Assembly: GCF_022201045.2 (NCBI RefSeq)
Contig: NC_068563.1
Location: 4,898,001 to 4,962,000 of the forward strand
DNA: 64,000 bases
Direction of reading: 5' to 3'
DNA from: Citrus sinensis
Lineage: Eukaryota; Streptophyta; Magnoliopsida; Sapindales; Rutaceae
Shown here: positions 2,633-48,030 of the stretch, one piece after another
Layout: each line of letters begins with the position of its first letter
Position numbering within the stretch: the first letter of the stretch is position 1
Made by a program: the position numbers and the translations under genes
Notes under the pieces: model-generated
Seen by the model: only the letters and a program-made list of their open reading frames with translations
Databases searched by the model: none
Told to the model about the DNA's origin: nothing

Positions 2633-4999
2633 AGTGTTAAATTACGTTAATTTTTCAATCTCTCATTTCTTACGTCATCCTATTTTTTTGACTAAATTTA
2701 CGTGTCAATAAACTTTATCTTAAAGATAAAAAGAGGAGGAATATCAACTTAAATGAAGAGTCGTTGATGTCCTACCGAGTTTTATTAAATCATAAAGAGA
2801 GAGAGAGAAAAGAAATTAAAGAGAAAAGACAACACAAATGTAACGGTTAAAACAATAATCCTCTTTCGTTATCATATAACGGATATAAACAATATTGGAA
2901 CTATATAATAAAATGTCGATTAAAATCTTTCTAAAGGATCGGATACCTTAACTTTTAATATGATAAGATTGTTGAATAAGAAAAATGATATTGTTTGTTG
3001 ACAACTTTTTGTTGGGACCCAATTAATCAATCGTTTTTGGGGCCAATAATACTCGATGGGTTTCCAATGGGGGAGACTCTGTAAAGTACCTTGAGGCCAC
3101 ACCATATGCTTACTAATGGTAATTTCAAAATTGATACGTCCGAGGTCTTTGTGGTTTTCTACACTTCATTTTTCTCACATGTTAAAATCATTATTCGTGG
3201 ACTGCAACAAAATATATTCATCATTATTCCAAATTGATTCTGTCTGTTGCTCAGCTGGCTTTTGAAACGCTGCGTGCGGATGCTATTGATTTATTAATCA
3301 AACTGCAGATGATTTTGTTATTGAGATGCGAATATGCGATTGATTGTTTTAAGACAAGATTAAAAAGAACGTATTTGGTGAAAAAAGATAAAAGAAATTC
3401 AAGAAATGGTTTGTCGAATATAAATATTCAAGATAATTTTCATTGTTTTATTTGTTTTGTTTTCATAAAAACTTATAAAATAATTGATTTTAAATTTACA
3501 CTTTCTCATTTTCATTGAGAGTTGAAGTTTTTTCATGTGCGTTGGAAAACTTTAATTTTAATGGATCAAGATAGGTTCCGATAGATTTAATCTGAATTAT
3601 AAGTTCTAAAGACTTTTTTTTTTATGTATATATTAATCAATTTATATTTTTACTTTGTAATTTTTTTAAAATATAAATAAACTTTTTTTTTTTTAATTTT
3701 ATTATCTAATTCAAAATAATAATTTTGAATCAAAAGTGAACTTGTTTAAGTGTTGCCTATTTTTCTTAATCTCATTTACTAATATCAAACAATGATTCAT
3801 TCTAATTGTCCCTTATTTAGGGGTATGGACAAAAAAATCGGTGTTTATAAAAAATTTGAAGATTGAAAAAATTAATAAAAACCAATCGGTTCATATAATA
3901 AAAAATCGAAAATCAAAAGAATCTCAAAATACAAAGAAATTACGTAATAGGGAAAAGAAAAAGAAACACTAAACTGAAAACATCGAACCAACGTAAAAGG
4001 AAGAAGTAAAAGAAAAACGAAACTGGAAACGGAATCGAACCAATTACGGTTCAGCTCGATAAATATATCGGATAAAAACCAATGGAGCCAACTCCACCCT
4101 CATTTAGAGGAGGTGTGTTATCAGTTAATAATGGGGTTGATTTAGTATTACTTATAGCGCAGAAGTTGGATCGAAAAAAGATGGGCTAATTCTGGATGGA
4201 CAAGCCCAACCCATCACCGACGTGCAATCTGCACAAGAAGATATCAATGGCAACGCCTCGGTAACTTTACTCACGGGGCGTACATCTTACGCGCGCCTCC
4301 GAAATTGTGTACCCAAATTGAGATCTTGGGTGTCCCAGTCAGCACCGTCCAGATAGATCCGATATCAAAATCTTCAGTCTTATCCTCTTCTAAAATAAAC
4401 AATAATTTATAGGACAGGATGAGCAATCCGGAGCGTTACTGCCTTGTTGCCCTTCGCGAGATCCATCTTTCTCTTTTCATCGAAACCAAAAAAAAAAAAA
4501 AAAAAATCAACTATTTTGACGATAATGCCCTTTACTTTTAGGATTAGGAAACTTAGGCCCCGTTTGGTACCGTTTTGCAAGCCATGTTTTCGTTTTCATT
4601 TTTATAATACACACGTAAAACATGTTTGGTGGTTTTGTTTCACAAAACAAATTACAGAACACAAAATCCGAATTTATTATTATAACTGTACAACTGAAAA
4701 CAAGTTAAACATGTTCTCCAAATTTTACAAACTAAACCTAAAAATAAATTAAAAAACAACAAAAAAATCGTGACCCTCTGCAGCCCTCACTCAAAATCCA
4801 GTTCACTACAGCTCCCTCTTTCCCCTCAATTTTCTCAATCCAGTTGCAGCAAATCTCTCTCTTGGTCGCTCTTGGTGTGCTAGCCACTGCCGCTGCTCTT
4901 TCTCCGCCGTAACCGCTGCTGCTCCGACTCCGTCCAACTGCTGCTACTCCGACTCCGTCCAGCCGCTGCTACTTCGTCTTTGCTCTCTCGGATCTGCAC

Positions 5000-5494
5000 T
5001 TGCTCTCTCGGATCTTTGCTCTCTCGCTACTTCGTTGTTGCTCACTCGGATCTGCATTTGTCCAACCATTTCGAGACAGTTTTGACGCATATGAAGATGA
5101 TGCAGGACACGAATTGGGTGGTCCGATAAGTCCATCTCTGCTTCAGTTGAAAGATTTGAAATACTTAGACTTAAGCATGAATAATTTTAAAGGCTTCAAA
5201 GTTCCAGAATTCATTGGATCACTAAAGGAATTGAGATACCTCAATCTGTCAGGCTCATTTTTCAGTGGGACTATTCCACAAAGTCTTGGAAACCTCACGA
5301 ATTTGCTTTATCTTGATCTCAATAATTTTCTTGATCAATCCAATCAAATAGGCCTTGGATGGCTTTCTGGTCTTCCTTCCTTGAAATATCTTAACTTGGG
5401 AGGGGCAGATCTTAGCAAGGATGCAGCATATTGGCTTGAAAGTATTAGTATGCTTCGTTCTCTTGTTCAGTTGCGCTTGCCCAATTGTAATTGA
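5000..5494 (+). pseudogene. LRR receptor-like protein (RLP) N-terminal fragment inside the Harbinger element
   Basis: The reading frame encodes the start of an extracellular LRR domain: DAGHELGGPISPSLLQLKDL, then successive repeats with LKYLDLSMNNF, LRYLNLSGSFFSGTIP, LLYLDLNNF and LKYLNLGGADLS, ending at YWLESISMLRSLVQLRLPNCN. This is the order seen in EIX2/Cf-type RLPs, which carry many more repeats, a transmembrane segment and a short tail, all absent here. No in-frame ATG precedes the LRR part; the first in-frame Met is within the second repeat. The frame stops at TGA 5492-5494, exactly where the transposase frame (N-V-I-E-R-C-F) takes over. Upstream, 4860-5060 is CT-rich with short tandem repeats and resembles a transposon leader. 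I see it as a captured, non-functional gene fragment. Confidence 0.8.
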
Positions 5495-5748
5495 GCGATG
5501 CTTTGGTGTTTTAAAAGCGCGATTTTTAACTTTAAGGGACATGTATAATTATAGTTTACGAAAGCAACGTCTAATTTTAATTGTTATTTGGAGACTTTGA
5601 TGTGTAAGATTTGGTTAACAACGATGAATGAGACATTAGTAGGCCACTTCCTAATATTGATTTATCTCCAGCAAGTGTCACAGAGATGAATGCTATGAGA
5701 GATGAAATTGCAGTTTTTATGTGGCATGATTACATACGTAATGCATAA
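5491..5748 (+). pseudogene. Harbinger transposase C-terminal remnant
   Basis: Translating from about 5485 gives NVIERCFGVLKARF, then LTLRDMYNYSLRKQR. This matches the conserved block of plant Harbinger (HARBI1-like) nucleases around the last catalytic glutamate (the E of IER). After a stop at 5629-5631, a 35-codon frame (5641-5748) ends with MRDEIAVFMWHDYIRNA, the family's usual C-terminus. The N-terminal helix and the first two catalytic aspartates are missing, so no active enzyme can be made. Family assignment is by memory of conserved motifs. Confidence 0.75.
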
Positions 5749-6202
5749 TGTGTATCATGTAATTTTTTTATAATTATTTTGTTTAAATCATGTGTTGTAA
5801 TATATATCTTAATTATATGGTGTAAAAATAATGACAATGTCAAAAAATTTTTAATTAATGTTAATTCTTAAACTTTATTATCATGTAATTTTTTTATATT
5901 AAATTTGGTTAAATTATTTTGTTGTATTTGTGTGTATTAGCTAAATAATTATTTTATGACTATAAATATAATGTAAATGATTAGTAAAAACTGTTTTTGA
6001 AAACGCATATTTTCTGTTTTTATCATTTTCAACTGTGTCTACCAAACGCATATTACTGTTTTCAATTTTAAAATATAGGATACAGAAAATGATACCAAAC
6101 GCATATTTAAATTCAAAATACAGCAACTGCAAAACACCATTTTCATTTTCGTTTTTATTCTCCAAAAATACAGATTCAAAAACAATACCAAACAGGCCCT
6201 TA

Positions 6203-7013: not shown

Positions 7014-10000
7014 ATGATCCCTACAAGCTCAAAGAAACGCCAGCGCGTGCCCTACCACACTTCCGCCATGCGCAACTCCTCCGCCGAATCATCCCAAAAA
7101 ATCCGCCGCTCAGCATCCGCCACCTCCTTCAGCGAAGCTTCTGCCGCCTCGGCCGCCGCCGCCGCCTCCGCCATCCCCCGTTGCTCCACTTCCTTCAACG
7201 AATCCTCCACTGCTGACGTCATTCTCCGTCTCTACGTCGACATCGACGCTCCTTACACTGTCAACTCCACTGCCGGAGACGACGTCCAGATTTACCTCCA
7301 CTCCAACGTCCTCCGCCGCTCGAAATACTTCGCCGCTCTCCTCTCCGATCGCTGGCTAAACCCTAACCCTGACACCAACAATGCCTTTGATACCGATAAC
7401 GAACACAAAATCCTCCGTCTCAATTTCGGCGTATCTTCGAACAAACCGAACTCAATCGCCGATCACTTAGCGGTCCTTCAACTTCTCTACACCGACGATT
7501 TCTCTTCCGTAATCAATTCCGTCTCTGTCGCGCTCGATTTGCTTCCTGTAGCTTTAGAATTCCTCTTCGAAGATTGCGTCAAAGCCTGCGTTAAATTCAT
7601 CGAAGCCGTGCCGTGGACCGAAGAAGAAGAAACAAGAGTTATTGAAGTAATTCCATTACTACGTGAAGAAGAATCTAAAGAGCTTCTATCTAGGTTTTCG
7701 CCGAACGAAAATTGCGGAGAAGATATGCTTCATGGATTGATTTTATCAGCGATTCATAACCATCCAAACATGGCCTTCGTGAAAGCGTTCGTCGCCAAAT
7801 TATTAAGGGACTTCGCGTCGAGAGATTCTGCGAGGCGCGTGTTAGAGAGGGCGTTTGAGGAGAGTTTGAAGGTGGTGAAGGAGAGCTTGGAAGAGTATTC
7901 TAGTCCTGATTTTAGAGGGGACCATAACGAGACTGAGGCAATACAGCGGTTGAATTTGCATACTGCGATGACGAATGGGCGGCATTTGTTGTGGTTGGTG
8001 GAGAGAATGATTGAGTTGAGGGTTGCGGATTCCGCTGTGAAGGAGTGGAGCGAGCAGGCTGCTTTTACGGCTGATTTGCAGCGTGCTTTTCGGGATGATG
8101 CTTGGAGGAATATTGTGCCGGGGCTTCCTGCTGTTATAATGAGGTGCACTTGTAAGCTTGCCAATGCTGTGGCTGGTGGGACTACTTTGGCTGCTAGACA
8201 GGTATTTGTTTTAGACTTTCTTCTTGCTCTTATGTGTAGATTATGCATAATTTATGTATGTTGACTGCTCTGGTTGGGAATTTACACTTGTTTATATTCT
8301 TGCTGGTTTGGTTCTTAGGATTAGTTTTTACTTTCTTTGTGAAGTGCAACTATTAATGATCAATTAATTGACTAGTCCTAATGCCATGTTATAATAGTTC
8401 TAAATGAATTCTTTAGGGTTTTGTCTCATTAGGTTGAGTTTCTTCTTGGAGCTTCTAGTTCTTGACAAGGGACTTCAGTTGTGATGTAGGGAGCATATAG
8501 GGTGGAATAAATTGGGAATTTTCGATTTTGAGTCAATTTAGTATTTAGTATTTTATAAGGATTTATCTTATTTTATTAAGTTTAGTTTAGTCATATTTGT
8601 AATTCGAGTCTAATTATGGTTTTAGATTATTTCTCGTATTTGAGACGGATTAGGATTAAGTTAGCTACCAGTATAAATAAATAGGTAGCTCTAGTACTCC
8701 ACCCCTGCAAGTGCACATGACTCAGATGAAGAGGAAATAGAAGGTGAATGACGAGAAAAGCATCTTGAACGATCATCAAAGGCACTACAATCAATGCAAC
8801 GCTCAATTGAGGCAATGGAGAGTTCAATGAGAGAATCTCGAGAATCATTATTAGAATGTCAACTCTCAAAGATATACCTGTAAGCATCATAAATAATTGA
8901 ATTCGTGGCCAAAATTACTCAAGATGATGCTGATCGTAATTTGAGCGTTGAGTTGAATAGTACAATTGAAGTTCAAGAAACTCAAGTTGAATAGGTATCA
9001 ATTGTTAGAAAGAATGATATGATTAATATGACTTCATCAAATCAAGTTGATGACAAGAGCATTATGCTTCAAAAAAGATCATGTAGAGGTAATTGTTTCT
9101 GAAGTTGAAATCAATTATCTCTAATACCACTTGATGCAGTGCGGAAGCGATATTAGATATCGTTCTAGCATGCATTCTAAAACTCTAGAAAGAATAGCGT
9201 TCAAAAAGAGAAAATGTCGAATTAACGACAAAGTTAAAACCTAAAGGGAATAATCTAAAATATTATAAATCTAGAATTCTTAATTTATTCTACCGTATAT
9301 GCTTCCTACATTAAGTTGCACGGTCAACAAATATGGGCTACTATCCATATATTGTTGACATGGTTAGAAGATTATGATGGTTGATGCTTAATGCCTTCCT
9401 CCCCTTTCCCCAAATTATCTTCTTTATGTCTTTTCTGCTCTCCATAATGCCTCTTTGTCTTGATCTTATTGTGGATGAATCCCCCCGTTGAGTCAATGTC
9501 AAAGTCCTTTCTTTGAATATTTTGGCTATTTGCTTAGATAGGAAAGCTATCATTTATCAGCATAGTTGGAAGAGTTTGTTGATGGCAAATGCTTGAGTCT
9601 GATAAATTAGGGAATTGATTCTCTGTCTGTCAAGAGGTGTGGCCTTTATCAGAGATTGATCATCTTAGTGGTTGCTTTGATGGCTACAAAATGTGCCTGT
9701 AGATGGCTCATGTCTCTGAGCATTTCAGAAAGTGACCTTCGTTGGACTCCATTGCAATGATTTACTTTACGGGATATTTACTAAACAATGTGAAAAATGA
9801 GAGGACTCAACTTGATAAAGTGATGTTTTATTTGCCAATATGTAGAGTATATATGTACATGTGTTTGATTGCAAGTTGTTTTTCCTTCTATGACTTTGGT
9901 GTTTCTGTTGATTTTGGGTTTCAAAGTTTCAAAGGTTAAACGCATATTCAATACAATGAAAAAGACCTTGCAGATGCAGGTTTACAAAATATATGGAACC

Positions 10001-42559: not shown

Positions 42560-42631
42560 GGTCTCATGGTCTAGTGGTCAGGACATTGGACTCTGAATCC
42601 AGTAACCCGAGTTCAAATCTCGGTGGGACCT
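42560..42631 (+). tRNA. tRNA-Gln(CTG)
   Basis: A complete 71-base cloverleaf plus discriminator. The acceptor stem GGTCTCA pairs with TGGGACC. The anticodon stem-loop TGGACTCTGAATCCA has anticodon CTG, and the T arm contains GTTCAAATC. A TTTTTT pol III terminator follows directly. The gene is transcribed away from the mTERF gene, whose start codon is 134 bases to the left. Confidence 0.95.
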
Positions 42632-43444: not shown

Positions 43445-46400
43445 TTAGTCCTGAACTTGTGTCTCTACATCTTGTGTGTCAGATGGTTCCGGGAATATAT
43501 CTCTAGACTGCCGTCTTTGAGAAGATGAATGTTCGCCTCCACCAATCTGGCCACTTCCCTGGGAGCCCGTGGTTCCCGATTGTTTTAAACTACTAGTGCC
43601 TTCTGCTTTAGTATTGGGGGGTACTGGAATGGCCGCTACATCAGATGAGCTCTGACGCCAACTACCAAAGAGAGCAGCATTCCAGGACCCTCTAGAAGAT
43701 GTAGTTCTAAGCCTTGCAGAGCCAGAATTCTCTTCCCTTACTACCTTCAAAGGATTTTCTAAAGCCTTCAGGATGTATCTCATGAGGGGCCTCCTCGTAG
43801 GCTTGGGATTAAGGCAAGACCTGGCAACAATGGCCATGGCCCAAACTTCCTCTAAAAGATCCTCATCTATGATCAGTGATGGATCCACAATCTTCGTTAC
43901 AAGTTCCTTGTCGTATATACTGATATATGGTAGTGTCTGTTCCAGTATTTCCTTCACTTGGGCATCACTAGATGCACTAATGCCCATCTTACCAGTTACC
44001 AGTTCAAGTAATACCTTTCCAAAGCAGTATACATCATAGGGACATGTTGCTGTCAGTGAACCTGGCCATTTGTCAAATGAAAAACAAATTTCAGATGCAA
44101 CATAAGAATTAAATGATAACATTAAATTCTGAATAATGAAGAGCCCTCTGGCAAGTGTGCAGCCAACACAACTTTAAGATCTCAAGCATTTGCTTAAAAA
44201 AGTCTGAAGTAAGAAATTAAATGCAATTAGAGTAGGTGCTTCATGAGGGAGGTAAAAGACAGTGATGCTTCATTTAGAGTGAACGAAGAAGGCTTTAAGA
44301 GAACACATAATTTTATGATAGTAGTTTGCTGCTTTACTCCAAATCTTGAACTCAAATTTAAGTGGTTATTAAATATAGCCGAGAAAAGAGGATTTCCATG
44401 AAAATAAATGTGAAATATTGTAAAAATAATAAACAAATAAATAACCATACCAGAGGAACCTTGTTCAGATGACCTGCACATGGCAACAAGAGAACTATGT
44501 TATAATCTTGATGACCAAAACAGTGTAACTTTAAATAGCCGGCAATTACTGAAACTGACGAAAATTAGAAACAACAAAATACACGAATATATAAGTTATA
44601 CGGCAAAATTTTGATCACCACAATAACAGAGCATACCCTTTAAGCATTATCAACTATTAGAAAGTTAAAATAAAATCAACACATAACAACAAGATACAAA
44701 TTCAAAGTTTGCTACAAAAACAGTTACAGATAATGGTTGAAAACCAAAATACATGGTGATTTTAGATAGGACAACAAATAATGTAAAATGTCAAAGCAAC
44801 ACCAGAAATATTTCCAAGCAACAAAATCAATGCAATACTAAAGCCAGATGTATTAATTCAGATAAGTCAAACTTCTAACAAAATACTTACTGTGGCAGAC
44901 GCAGCAACCTCGTAATCCTGCTTTGATGCGCATCACCTCCTTGAGCACAGACCTCACTCAGGCTCCCTAGCCGTACTTCAAATTTATCATCAAGAAGTAT
45001 ACTGCTTGCTTGAACATCTCTTCAAGAATACAAGAAAACTACGTCATTAATTGGACAAGACATAATTATAGCAGGATTAATGCAGTGCATATTCAAAATA
45101 TTTAAAAGGAAGACATACTGAAGACTCTACTTAACTAGCAAAAGATTTATGCAATCCACAACTGCTAATTTTTTTTTTTTTTTTTGACTTCCACTATTTT
45201 CATAATAGTACTGTGGGTCACATGAAGATCACATTCTTTCAGTACACAATTACCACCATAATCATATGACCACATACTAGTCTACAACTGATTATTAAAA
45301 GCTGATTATATCTAGAATGACATACAAACATATGATGTTAAAAGCTCAGAATGACTCAACAGAATAGCATTTACAACGTAACAACTGCACCATTTGCAAT
45401 ATCATGGCCACAGACTCTTCCAAATTACTAGTAGATGGTCTAGATAGCCTTAAAATACAACATTTAACATTGCATCTAAACAATTATTAGACTCTCTATG
45501 GTAAGTTGAAAGAAATTGACCATCACAAGAAGGTCTTGAATGTACCTGTGCACAAAAGGTAGCGTACATTCATGATGCAGATAAGATAGGCCCTCTGCAG
45601 CTCCTATTGCAATTTTCAATCTTGTTATCCAATCCAATGACTGTAAGTCGTCTTCTGTGTTGGTTTTCCTATACAAGGAACTTGACAAGTCCCCATTTGG
45701 CATATATTTATAAACAAGGAACTTCTCATTTTCTCTCTCCATGCAATGTCCCAAGAGGGGAACCAGCCTGGCATGTGAAACCTTGCTAAAGAAATCCAAT
45801 TCCAATAGGTATGCTTCCGTTTTTACTGACTGCAAATCAATTCTTTTGATGACCACAGGGATGCCACCTTCCAAGATACCCCGGAAGAGATCACCTGAGT
45901 GGCCATTCTTTATTAGGTTTGCATCACTAAAGTCACCAGTGGCTGCAAGCAGTTGCTGATAAGTAAATGATTCTCCTAGGTTAGTAAAGTTAATCGATGC
46001 TCCAGGAGGTGGCAGGCTGGATCCTGCAGGAACTGGCCCCACGCCAACCCCTCTTTGATTGGGAGTGCGCTTCTTACAGAAGCATAAGGCTAGCAATGCA
46101 AGCAACACCAAAAGTACAATGAGCCCAAAGCCCCCCAGAACTGCTGACAGTACAATTATCTTTCTGTTACTATCCCCAGAGGTTTCTGGTGGAGGAGGTT
46201 GTGTGGCATTTGGGCGTCCAAAATTATCAAAACTCAGGCCCCTTGCAGCATAGAATGATGAACAGTCTACCAGAGTCCTCTGGTTTGGCACATTTTGAAG
46301 GCAATTGCTATCAAGGGAAGATGCATTACTGTGCACATATTCTGGAACCCTGCCTTCAAAATAGTTTCCTGAGAGATCAACGAGTCTGAACCTTCCAAGC

Positions 46401-47488
46401 ACTGGTGTGAGACCTCCATAAAACATGTTCTGAGAAATATTGAGTTCTACAGTAGAGGTGTTTACATTAGATCTAGAGTTCGGCAATGGACCCGTGAAAT
46501 TATTCCGCGAAATGTCAAGCAGACGCAATTGAGGCATTGACCATAAAACATCAGGAGGAGGTCCAGTGAAACCATTCTGTCTCAACACAATAATCTGCAA
46601 CTGACTAACAGTTGGAAACAAATTAACTGACAAATTCCCACTCAGAAAATTGCTGCCAATCACAAACTTCTGCAAACTCCTTAACCCTCTTAATTCGGAC
46701 GGCACTGATCCAGATAAAGAATTCATGCTGAGATCAAGATCAACCAAGCTATCAAGATCCCCAAGCTGAGCAGGAATTGAAGAAGCTAAACTATTGTTCG
46801 AAACATTTAAATACTGTAGCTTAGAAAGTGTCCCAAGGCCAGGAGGTATCGAACCTGTTAAGTAGTTCGAAGAAATGTCAAGGCTTGAAAGATTCTTAAG
46901 CAACCCAAATGAAGTAGGAATGTTTTCAGTCAGCGAATTCCTCGAAAGATCAAGAACAGAAAGGACTGACAATTGACCCAAACTTGAAGGGATTGTCCCA
47001 GTCAGGCCATTATCAGACAAATATAGACTAGTTAAATTAGTCAAATTACCAAGACTAAAAGGAATCACACCACTTATAGAACAAGAACGGAGATCCAGTG
47101 CTTGCAAAGTTGGCAACTGCTGCCCCAGCCAATCAGGGATCGAGCCAGGAAGCAGGAATCTTGAGGCATTAAAAGAGGCCAAATGTGTTAAGTTCACAAG
47201 AGCATCTGCAGCAAATCGCGGGTTTTGGCTTCCAAGTCTTGTCCTTCTAAACCCCGAAATGTTAATTCCAACAACGCTACCATTTTGACATCTGACACCA
47301 TTCCAAACTAAACAAGGATCAACCTTTCTTGGCCAATCCCTTCTTCTTAGCCCTAATGAGGATCTGAGTTCAAACAGAGCTGCCAACTCAGTTCTTGAAC
47401 TCAGTCTCTCCAGTTGCTGCTCAAATGTAGGTTCAAATAATAATAAGAACATAACAAAAAACATCACTACACTTCTCTGATCCACCAT
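43445..47488 (-). CDS. LRR receptor-like protein kinase (probable pseudokinase), At2g16250-like
   Basis: Four exons: 47488-45546, 45019-44891, 44473-44451 and 44061-43445, giving 903 residues. I use the ATG at 47488 (context GCCATGG, MVDQR...) because it puts a signal peptide (VVMFFVMFLLLF) at the N-terminus; an in-frame ATG 16 codons upstream would bury it. Then an LRR cap (DPCLVWNGVRC, about 60), about ten LRRs (about 125-370), a Pro-rich linker, a transmembrane helix (about 441-470, IIVLSAVLGGFGLIVLLVLL) and a kinase-like domain. The VVIK lysine is present. The catalytic loop reads HRDVQASS instead of HRDLKxxN, and the DFG position reads LGS, so Mg-binding residues are lost. The Gly-rich loop is also atypical (NGHSGDLF). 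The Ser/Gly-rich tail follows SSRGSWNAALFGSWRQSSSD. It probably signals by scaffolding at the plasma membrane. Exon 3 is only 23 bases. Confidence 0.92.
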
Positions 47489-48030
47489 GGCTTTCACACA
47501 CTCACAATCATCCAACAATAACATAGACCACCTCATGTTCTTTCTCTCCTACTGTGCACATTATCAGAAGTGTATTTCACTGTAAATAAACTGAAATCCA
47601 ACAGAATAAAAGATACCCAGATGCCAAAAACTCATTCTTTTTCCGTTCTCTTAATAACATAACATTAAAGCTCTTACCTCAATTACAACATTAAAACAAC
47701 TTTTTCCCTTCTTCTTAAAGAACTTTTGCTCACCAATCTGCTTTGCTTCCTTATGCTTCTCCTCTCTTCTTTTTCTTCTCTCTCTCTACCTGCTCTTGTC
47801 TCTCTCTAAATCCTTCTGTTTCTTTAGTTGACAAAATAAAAATAAAAATAAAAATGGCCAGTGATCTATTAATTAAAATAATAATATCACTGAAATAAAG
47901 AGAGAGAGAGAGAGAGAGAGTCCCCAAAAAAAAAAAGGAAAAGAAGAGAAGAGAAAAGAACAAGCAAAAAAAAAAAAAAAAGTGGTGGGCAAGCAAGCAA
48001 AGAACAACTGGGAAGTGGAGACTATTCACT
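47489..48030 (-). other. 5' leader/promoter region of the LRR pseudokinase gene
   Basis: It contains a (GA)n run at about 47899-47921 and several A-rich tracts. On the gene's own strand these read as CT-rich leader sequence, common in plant 5' UTRs. No TATA box was fixed with confidence. Confidence 0.4.

Follow-up and report, generated by a model that had tools for sequence, protein, structure and literature searches.

Helitrons are known to capture gene fragments and to spread them, and both Helitrons and Pack-MULEs differ from PIF elements in their transposase, their ends and their target duplications. Capture and spread of gene fragments have likewise been described for Pack-MULEs (PMC8277862, PMC2528002), and there is still debate on how genes are picked up by cut-and-paste transposons, with neighbouring insertions, gap filling and fork switching as the proposed routes (PMC8277862, PMC8903248). 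For PIF elements, the closest described systems are Pifvine-3 of grapevine, in which elements carry host sequences and some of them are present in several copies (PMC2528002), and the Pack-PIFs of maize and rice, described together with a neighbouring-insertion model (PMC8903248). Outside the plants, animal Pack-TIRs show microhomology at their breakpoints, and a model of fork switching (FoSTeST) followed by transposition has been put forward for the multi-copy cases (PMC8277862). That PIF elements capture genes has been published before, and by two of these reports it is better documented than was supposed in the initial annotation of the DNA analysed here, which had called it less often described for Harbinger elements (PMC2528002, PMC8903248); what is new is that joins and donors are resolved within one PIF family. 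A literature search on PIF capture with template switching found no paper, and one on Harbinger capture with microhomology led to a single review of MITEs.

The DNA analysed is a stretch of 64,000 nucleotides from Citrus sinensis, referred to here as the window (C8:4898001-4962000, contigs being written as C and a number), which is part of a 300-Mb, 11-contig genome; the whole genome was searched. At positions 4556-6199 the window holds a non-autonomous PIF/Harbinger (Pack-PIF) element with a fragment of a receptor-like protein (RLP) gene inside it. Like Pifvine-3, this is a PIF element; the duplications in grapevine are mostly TTA/TAA as well, and the grapevine exon and intron matches lie 5' of the transposase. 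There, however, a long 5' region has been added, whereas the RLP copies in Citrus lack ORF1 and most of the transposase, and their joins are compared base by base with the donor (PMC2528002). With the maize and rice Pack-PIFs, whose example cluster has gene pieces of 163 and 58 bp, the Citrus elements share a non-autonomous PIF constitution, terminal inverted repeats (TIRs), mostly TTA/TAA duplications and a multi-copy state; re-mobilised neighbouring insertions are favoured in that report, the main text of which does not use the word 'microhomology', while the internal joins with overlap and filler found here favour template switching (PMC8903248). As in animal Pack-TIRs, microhomology is present at the breakpoints, and a multi-copy state may be explained by fork switching followed by transposition; that work concerns animals, however, its main text does not contain 'Harbinger', and few of its cases are multi-copy in reference genomes (PMC8277862).

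On balance, it appears probable that one PIF family is a serial gene capturer, with at least six captures whose donors lie in the same genome and of which the RLP piece (five copies) and a fifth capture described below (six copies) have been amplified, and that its joins are the trace of template switches within the element and not of neighbouring insertions, the route put forward for Pack-PIFs of plants.

The element, its ends and its relatives

The features of the element are listed below by position in the window.

4553-4555, no strand: left target-site duplication TTA; TTA lies on both sides in 5/5 full-length copies
4556-6199, plus strand: PIF/Harbinger (Pack-PIF type) element with the RLP fragment inside, one of five full-length copies found in the genome
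4556-4576, plus strand: left terminal inverted repeat GGCCCCGTTTGGTACCGTTTT, read in the window and in copies
4556-5070, plus strand: 5' part of the element, common to relatives without the RLP piece
5066-5070, no strand: left-join overlap CCATT, 5 nt, between element relatives and donor, from printed alignments
5066-5491, plus strand: captured fragment of an RLP gene, 426 nt that code for LRRs, with 97.4% identity to C2:10033537-10033962
5486-5491, no strand: right-join overlap TGTAAT, 6 nt (5 nt when the comparison is with relatives like C8:15.66), from printed alignments
5486-5600, plus strand: remnant of DDE transposase C-terminal coding, VIERCFGVLKARF..., in a frame within ORF 5421-5600; the relative C4:2.70 matches DDE_Tnp_4
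5486-6199, plus strand: 3' part of the element, common to many relatives
6175-6199, minus strand: right terminal inverted repeat GGGCCTGTTTGGTATTGTTTTTGAA, given as on the minus strand
6200-6202, no strand: right target-site duplication TTA, read in the window

The element ends in GGCCCCGTTTGGTAC on the left and GGGCCTGTTTGGTAT on the right (reverse-complemented), and its TIRs are imperfect (GGCCCCGTTTGGTACCGTTTT versus GGGCCTGTTTGGTATTGTTTT). They begin with GGG/GGC...GTTTGG, a start that is typical for PIF/Harbinger elements and is present in the window copy, in the RLP copies and in other elements. The initial annotation had taken the TTA duplications and the ends as marks of a PIF/Harbinger element, and this is borne out: TTA stands at 4553-4555 and at 6200-6202, TIRs were found, and ends and TTA are present in other copies, where their recurrence had been put forward as a check. 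Among the other elements with both ends printed, TTA/TAA matches by eye in five out of six, C8:15.66 being the one without a match.

Relatives without the RLP piece share element sequence up to position 5070 (7/7 printed) and then continue in other element sequence. On the right side, element sequence is common from 5486 onward in seven of the eight printed relatives, C7:21.35 departing from it, and C8:15.66 and C6:16.13 have differing sequence immediately upstream of the right join. A relative of 4.5 kb (C6:12141499-12145997) can be aligned at the DNA level to the two end parts as well as to the pieces of other relatives that code for Myb/SANT and DDE; its own coding is broken into separate reading frames. 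Pieces of C3:38.08 and C4:2.70 match DDE_Tnp_4 (PF13359) above the curated cut-off, the E value being 1e-9 for the stretch of C4:2.70 that corresponds to the right part, and a Myb/SANT-like ORF of C4:13.58 matches PF12776 (E 1e-15); no intact transposase was seen among the relatives examined. The window copy is without the Myb/SANT ORF1 and without most of the transposase gene, of which the C-terminal remnant is kept. The proposal that about 400 bp of RLP sequence had replaced the N-terminus of the transposase stands as regards the insert, which is 426 nt of RLP LRR sequence, but more than the N-terminus is absent, as is seen from relatives in which these end parts enclose coding regions for Myb/SANT and for DDE.

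As for the surroundings, an ORF of 416 aa on the plus strand (7014-8264) starts 814 bp past the element and has no Pfam match; by eye it is presumably BTB/POZ-like, and its upstream region may be where the element is located. A tRNA-Gln (CTG) gene lies at 42560-42631 on the plus strand.

The receptor fragment, its donor and its copies

The middle of the element, from 5066 to 5491, is LRR sequence (LRR_8, E 6e-13). The captured piece amounts to 142 codons with LRR matches only; no match to the LRRNT_2 domain was returned for it by Pfam, and it falls short of a full LRR array. When the RLP part was searched alone in the genome, all 21 candidates were scored: five lie in elements, four are element-free, meaning that no element sequence occurs within the fetched 1.5-kb flanks, and 12 match at 67-73%. 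The element-free places are C2:10033537 (97%), C8:3759998 (94%), C2:10061775 (89%) and C2:10131303 (86%), three of the four falling within C2:10.03-10.13 Mb. The original reading of an RLP fragment captured by a PIF/Harbinger element is upheld by this combination of one 426-nt RLP piece in the element and element-free donor-like places elsewhere, and the alignment recommended for finding the donor and the age leads to C2:10033537-10033962 at 97.4%. At this place, C2:10.034, an LRRNT_2 domain precedes the stretch that matches the captured piece, which indicates that the piece derives from an early part of an RLP ectodomain, close to its start. C2:10.034, the closest RLP place, itself appears interrupted, and the true donor may therefore be a lost or altered RLP copy. 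Elsewhere in the window, at 45476-47536 on the minus strand, there is an ORF resembling LRR receptor kinases (E 8e-37 for LRR_8 and 2e-14 for the kinase), which is outside the 21 matches to the captured piece.

The genome DNA search, in which the best 40 of 333 candidates were scored, gave five matches over the full 1644 bases. Besides the window copy these are C9:2065311, C5:31767416, C4:10345239 and C1:15399066, at 92-97% identity; the five lie on five contigs, with differing flanks and TTA on both sides of each (contig orientation), and all have the same join boundaries. Since there are several copies with separate duplications, the element has moved as a unit. A multi-copy state had been considered for the element, and a search for copies with and without the LRR insert had been advised: five full-length copies with it occupy five sites, and relatives without RLP sequence share its end parts. 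In a tree of nine close RLP-piece sequences, the five element copies form one clade (99/94) beside C2:10.034 (94/90), with K2P distances of 0.005-0.019 among the copies and of 0.026-0.031 between the copies and C2:10.034. Given identical joins in five TTA-flanked copies and a single clade, the RLP fragment was very probably captured once, the product then spreading by transposition. If plant sequences change at annual rates between 7e-9 and 1.5e-8 per site, the divergence would put the capture at roughly 1-2 million years ago.

Joins and the route of capture

At the left join the relative reads GCACTTGCCCAACCATTGTTGC, the donor CTCAACAACCCATTTCGAG and the element TTGYCCAACCATTTCGAG, with CCATT as the exact overlap. 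At the right join the corresponding readings are GCGTAATGTAATTGAG / GCGTAATGTAATTGAGCG for the relative, CCCAATTGTAATCTTCCC / GCCCAATTGTAATCTTCCC for the donor and CCCAATTGTAATTGAG / GCCCAATTGTAATTGAGCG for the element, and the exact overlap is TGTAAT, or 5 nt instead of 6 when measured against two relatives (C8:15.66 type). The C5 copy has one substitution within the left overlap. The right join had correctly been placed at a short stretch shared by RLP and transposase sequence; the suggested short homology at the capture joins extends to the left one, which the initial annotation had not mentioned, so that there are exact overlaps of 5 nt (left) and 6 nt (right). Their sum of 11 nt is reached by random breakpoints with P ~1e-4. 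The two parts had also been described as fused: they are joined at the DNA level, but there is no in-frame fusion, as the RLP frame (ORF 5000-5494) ends at a TGA on the join and the transposase remnant lies in another frame. Two nested insertions with ends of their own, the arrangement named earlier as a possible alternative, were looked for and rejected, no ends being seen around the RLP piece alone and no internal TIR or duplication at either join.

The sister elements carry pieces from at least five places besides the RLP gene, each with a donor elsewhere in the genome; six of their interiors were searched in the genome, five being counted as captures and one as probable. A piece of a PPR gene is present in C3:14.83, C6:18.66 and C1:6.92 (donor C1:2752728-2753433, 98%). 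C6:2.45 has the single copy of an antisense piece of an AMP-binding ligase gene together with its upstream sequence (5' region), for which the donor is C3:39071877 (96%); PF00501 is matched with an E value of 1e-22 by the element and of 3e-71 by the donor, and we take this piece to be 4-coumarate ligase-like. C6:21.1 and C4:13.89 contain an antisense piece of a probable AP2-type gene (donor C2:2581623, 99%), and C5:24.54 and C8:18.44 each give a shorter match that passes into element-like sequence; the AP2 match of the donor is below the cut-off (E 0.005), none occurs in the captured piece, and the donor is presumably AINTEGUMENTA-like. The fifth capture, of about 830 nt, occurs in six elements, three of them read directly (C5:10.25, C4:29.40, C3:13.30) and three inferred from adjoining match coordinates (C5:13.06, C2:10.64, C2:32.12). 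Its donor, C4:25811216 (98%), has no element matches within the 2-kb stretch fetched, and its longest frame has no Pfam match. The sixth capture is in C1:17.70 (one copy; donor C7:8763100, 96%); part of it is a repeat with many occurrences, and within the donor stretch 19 nt match an element at one point. C7:25.80 with C7:10233324 (93%) is a probable seventh capture, kept out of the count because parts of it recur at several other places. No Pfam match was obtained for three reading frames taken from the interiors of sister elements, C1:17.70 supplying one of the three. The capture count leaves aside the interiors of C1:5.34, C2:30.05/C7:21.35, C2:12.95, C8:15.66/C4:6.28, C9:19.47, C3:48.81 and C3:50.16, as well as a stretch common to C8:21.09, C4:2.70, C2:32.59 and partly C1:6.92 and C6:2.45, and the family counts are lower bounds, the element searches having scored the best 40 of 333 and the best 40 of 248 candidates.

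Ten joins, for which element relative, element and donor were all available, were scored for overlap by eye from printed alignments, with empirical P values from random breakpoints in the same sequences; the left join of the PPR capture (filler) and that of the fifth capture (no element relative) were left out. The overlaps are 5 and 6 nt for RLP, 5 nt for the PPR right join (next to which the C1:6.92 copy has a substitution), 3 and 3 nt for the ligase, 1 and 2 nt for the AP2-type piece, 1 nt for the right join of the fifth capture, and 0 and 3 nt for the sixth, where the 0 becomes 3 when one C/T difference is tolerated. Their sum is 29 nt versus 7.8 expected (P ~5e-6), and 18 nt without RLP (P 0.0013); when each join is taken by itself, P falls below 0.01 for those of RLP and PPR only, overlaps being 0-1 nt at three joins out of ten and 2 nt at one. 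At the PPR left join of C1:6.92 there is a filler of 34 nt, in which 19 nt agree without a difference with a sister element's 3' part; among 191 flank 34-mers used as a control, the longest match to the element was 16 and the mean 9.2.

The combination of donors remaining where they were, overlaps of a few nucleotides and a filler of this kind is best explained by template switching, and such a step is considered likely. A break inside the element would undergo repair or replication, the template would switch at 5-6 nt of homology into the RLP gene and then back into the element, and the chimeric element would be mobilised by the transposase of a fuller relative, sister elements having captured other sequences likewise. 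Overlaps of 0-6 nt would also fit microhomology-mediated end joining, by which a fragment of RLP DNA was trapped while a break in the element was being closed, yet this is rather unlikely: the donor places persist as separate copies, so that a copying step is needed somewhere, and a filler at the PPR left join that matches the element's own 3' part is more typical of synthesis. Very improbable is the mobilisation as one unit of neighbouring or nested RLP and transposon insertions, as for Pack-TYPE elements, a model published for Pack-CACTA and extended in the maize and rice report to superfamilies including PIF (PMC8903248), since neither internal TIRs nor duplications mark the joins, donor and element abut at internal positions of the element with exact overlaps of 5 and 6 nt, and among the matches listed no element lies inside the C2:10.03-10.13 Mb RLP cluster, the nearest (C2:10638046-10639431) carrying another insert.

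Fate and significance of the captured pieces

Codon positions 1 or 2 hold 11 of the 13 sites that vary among the copies, a spread compatible with neutral drift (binomial P 0.24 versus two thirds), and the RLP frame of the C5 copy is interrupted by a TGA. Between copies, dN is of the order of dS (six pairs; the four pairs with C5 were left out, owing to the in-frame stop). The copies differ from C2:10.034 by dN 0.018-0.024 and dS 0.044-0.056, values to which the donor branch contributes as well, and the RLP paralogues have dN 0.03-0.10 and dS 0.17-0.46. Divergence among the copies is 1.4% in the insert versus 2.6% in the left part and 3.8% in the right part; variable columns number 13/426 in the insert, 28/484 in the left part (P 0.05) and 57/706 in the right part (P 5e-4), and with CpG columns removed the insert differs from the right part with P 0.002 and from the left part with P 0.15. 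Simple joint descent gives no account of this lower divergence; it may have come about, for instance, if the copies exchanged their ends with other elements of the family. Selection on the RLP piece was considered and is unsupported at the protein level by the codon positions, by dN/dS among the copies and by the C5 stop. As judged from these sequence comparisons, the lack of protein-level constraint and the in-frame stop speak against a receptor function, and the host sequences picked up are most likely passengers that do nothing as protein.

The captured piece might also work via small RNA, element transcripts giving rise to siRNA that would lower the expression of the RLP cluster. In keeping with this, the RLP sequence is present in five copies that hardly differ and that match a member of the cluster at 97%, and Pack-MULEs are mentioned in the animal Pack-TIR report as possibly encoding small RNAs (PMC8277862); silencing of RLP genes is possible, if improbable. 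That the chimeric element is on its way to becoming a gene, with the RLP piece retained as a decoy or a shuffled ectodomain, is scarcely credible: the insert is less variable than both element parts, the window copy has a 164-codon frame and dN is below dS between the copies and C2:10.034 (donor branch included), but this is set against the prevalence of variable sites at codon positions 1 or 2, the C5 stop, a dN of the order of dS in the six computed copy pairs, and a frame that before the RLP part offers TTG and no ATG.

For the family, several captures, donors in the same genome, sister elements that lack the captured pieces and joins resolved to the base are brought together, which makes the competing models of gene pick-up testable on one set. 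For the host, five near-identical receptor fragments on five contigs could influence the receptor cluster via small RNA or unequal exchange.
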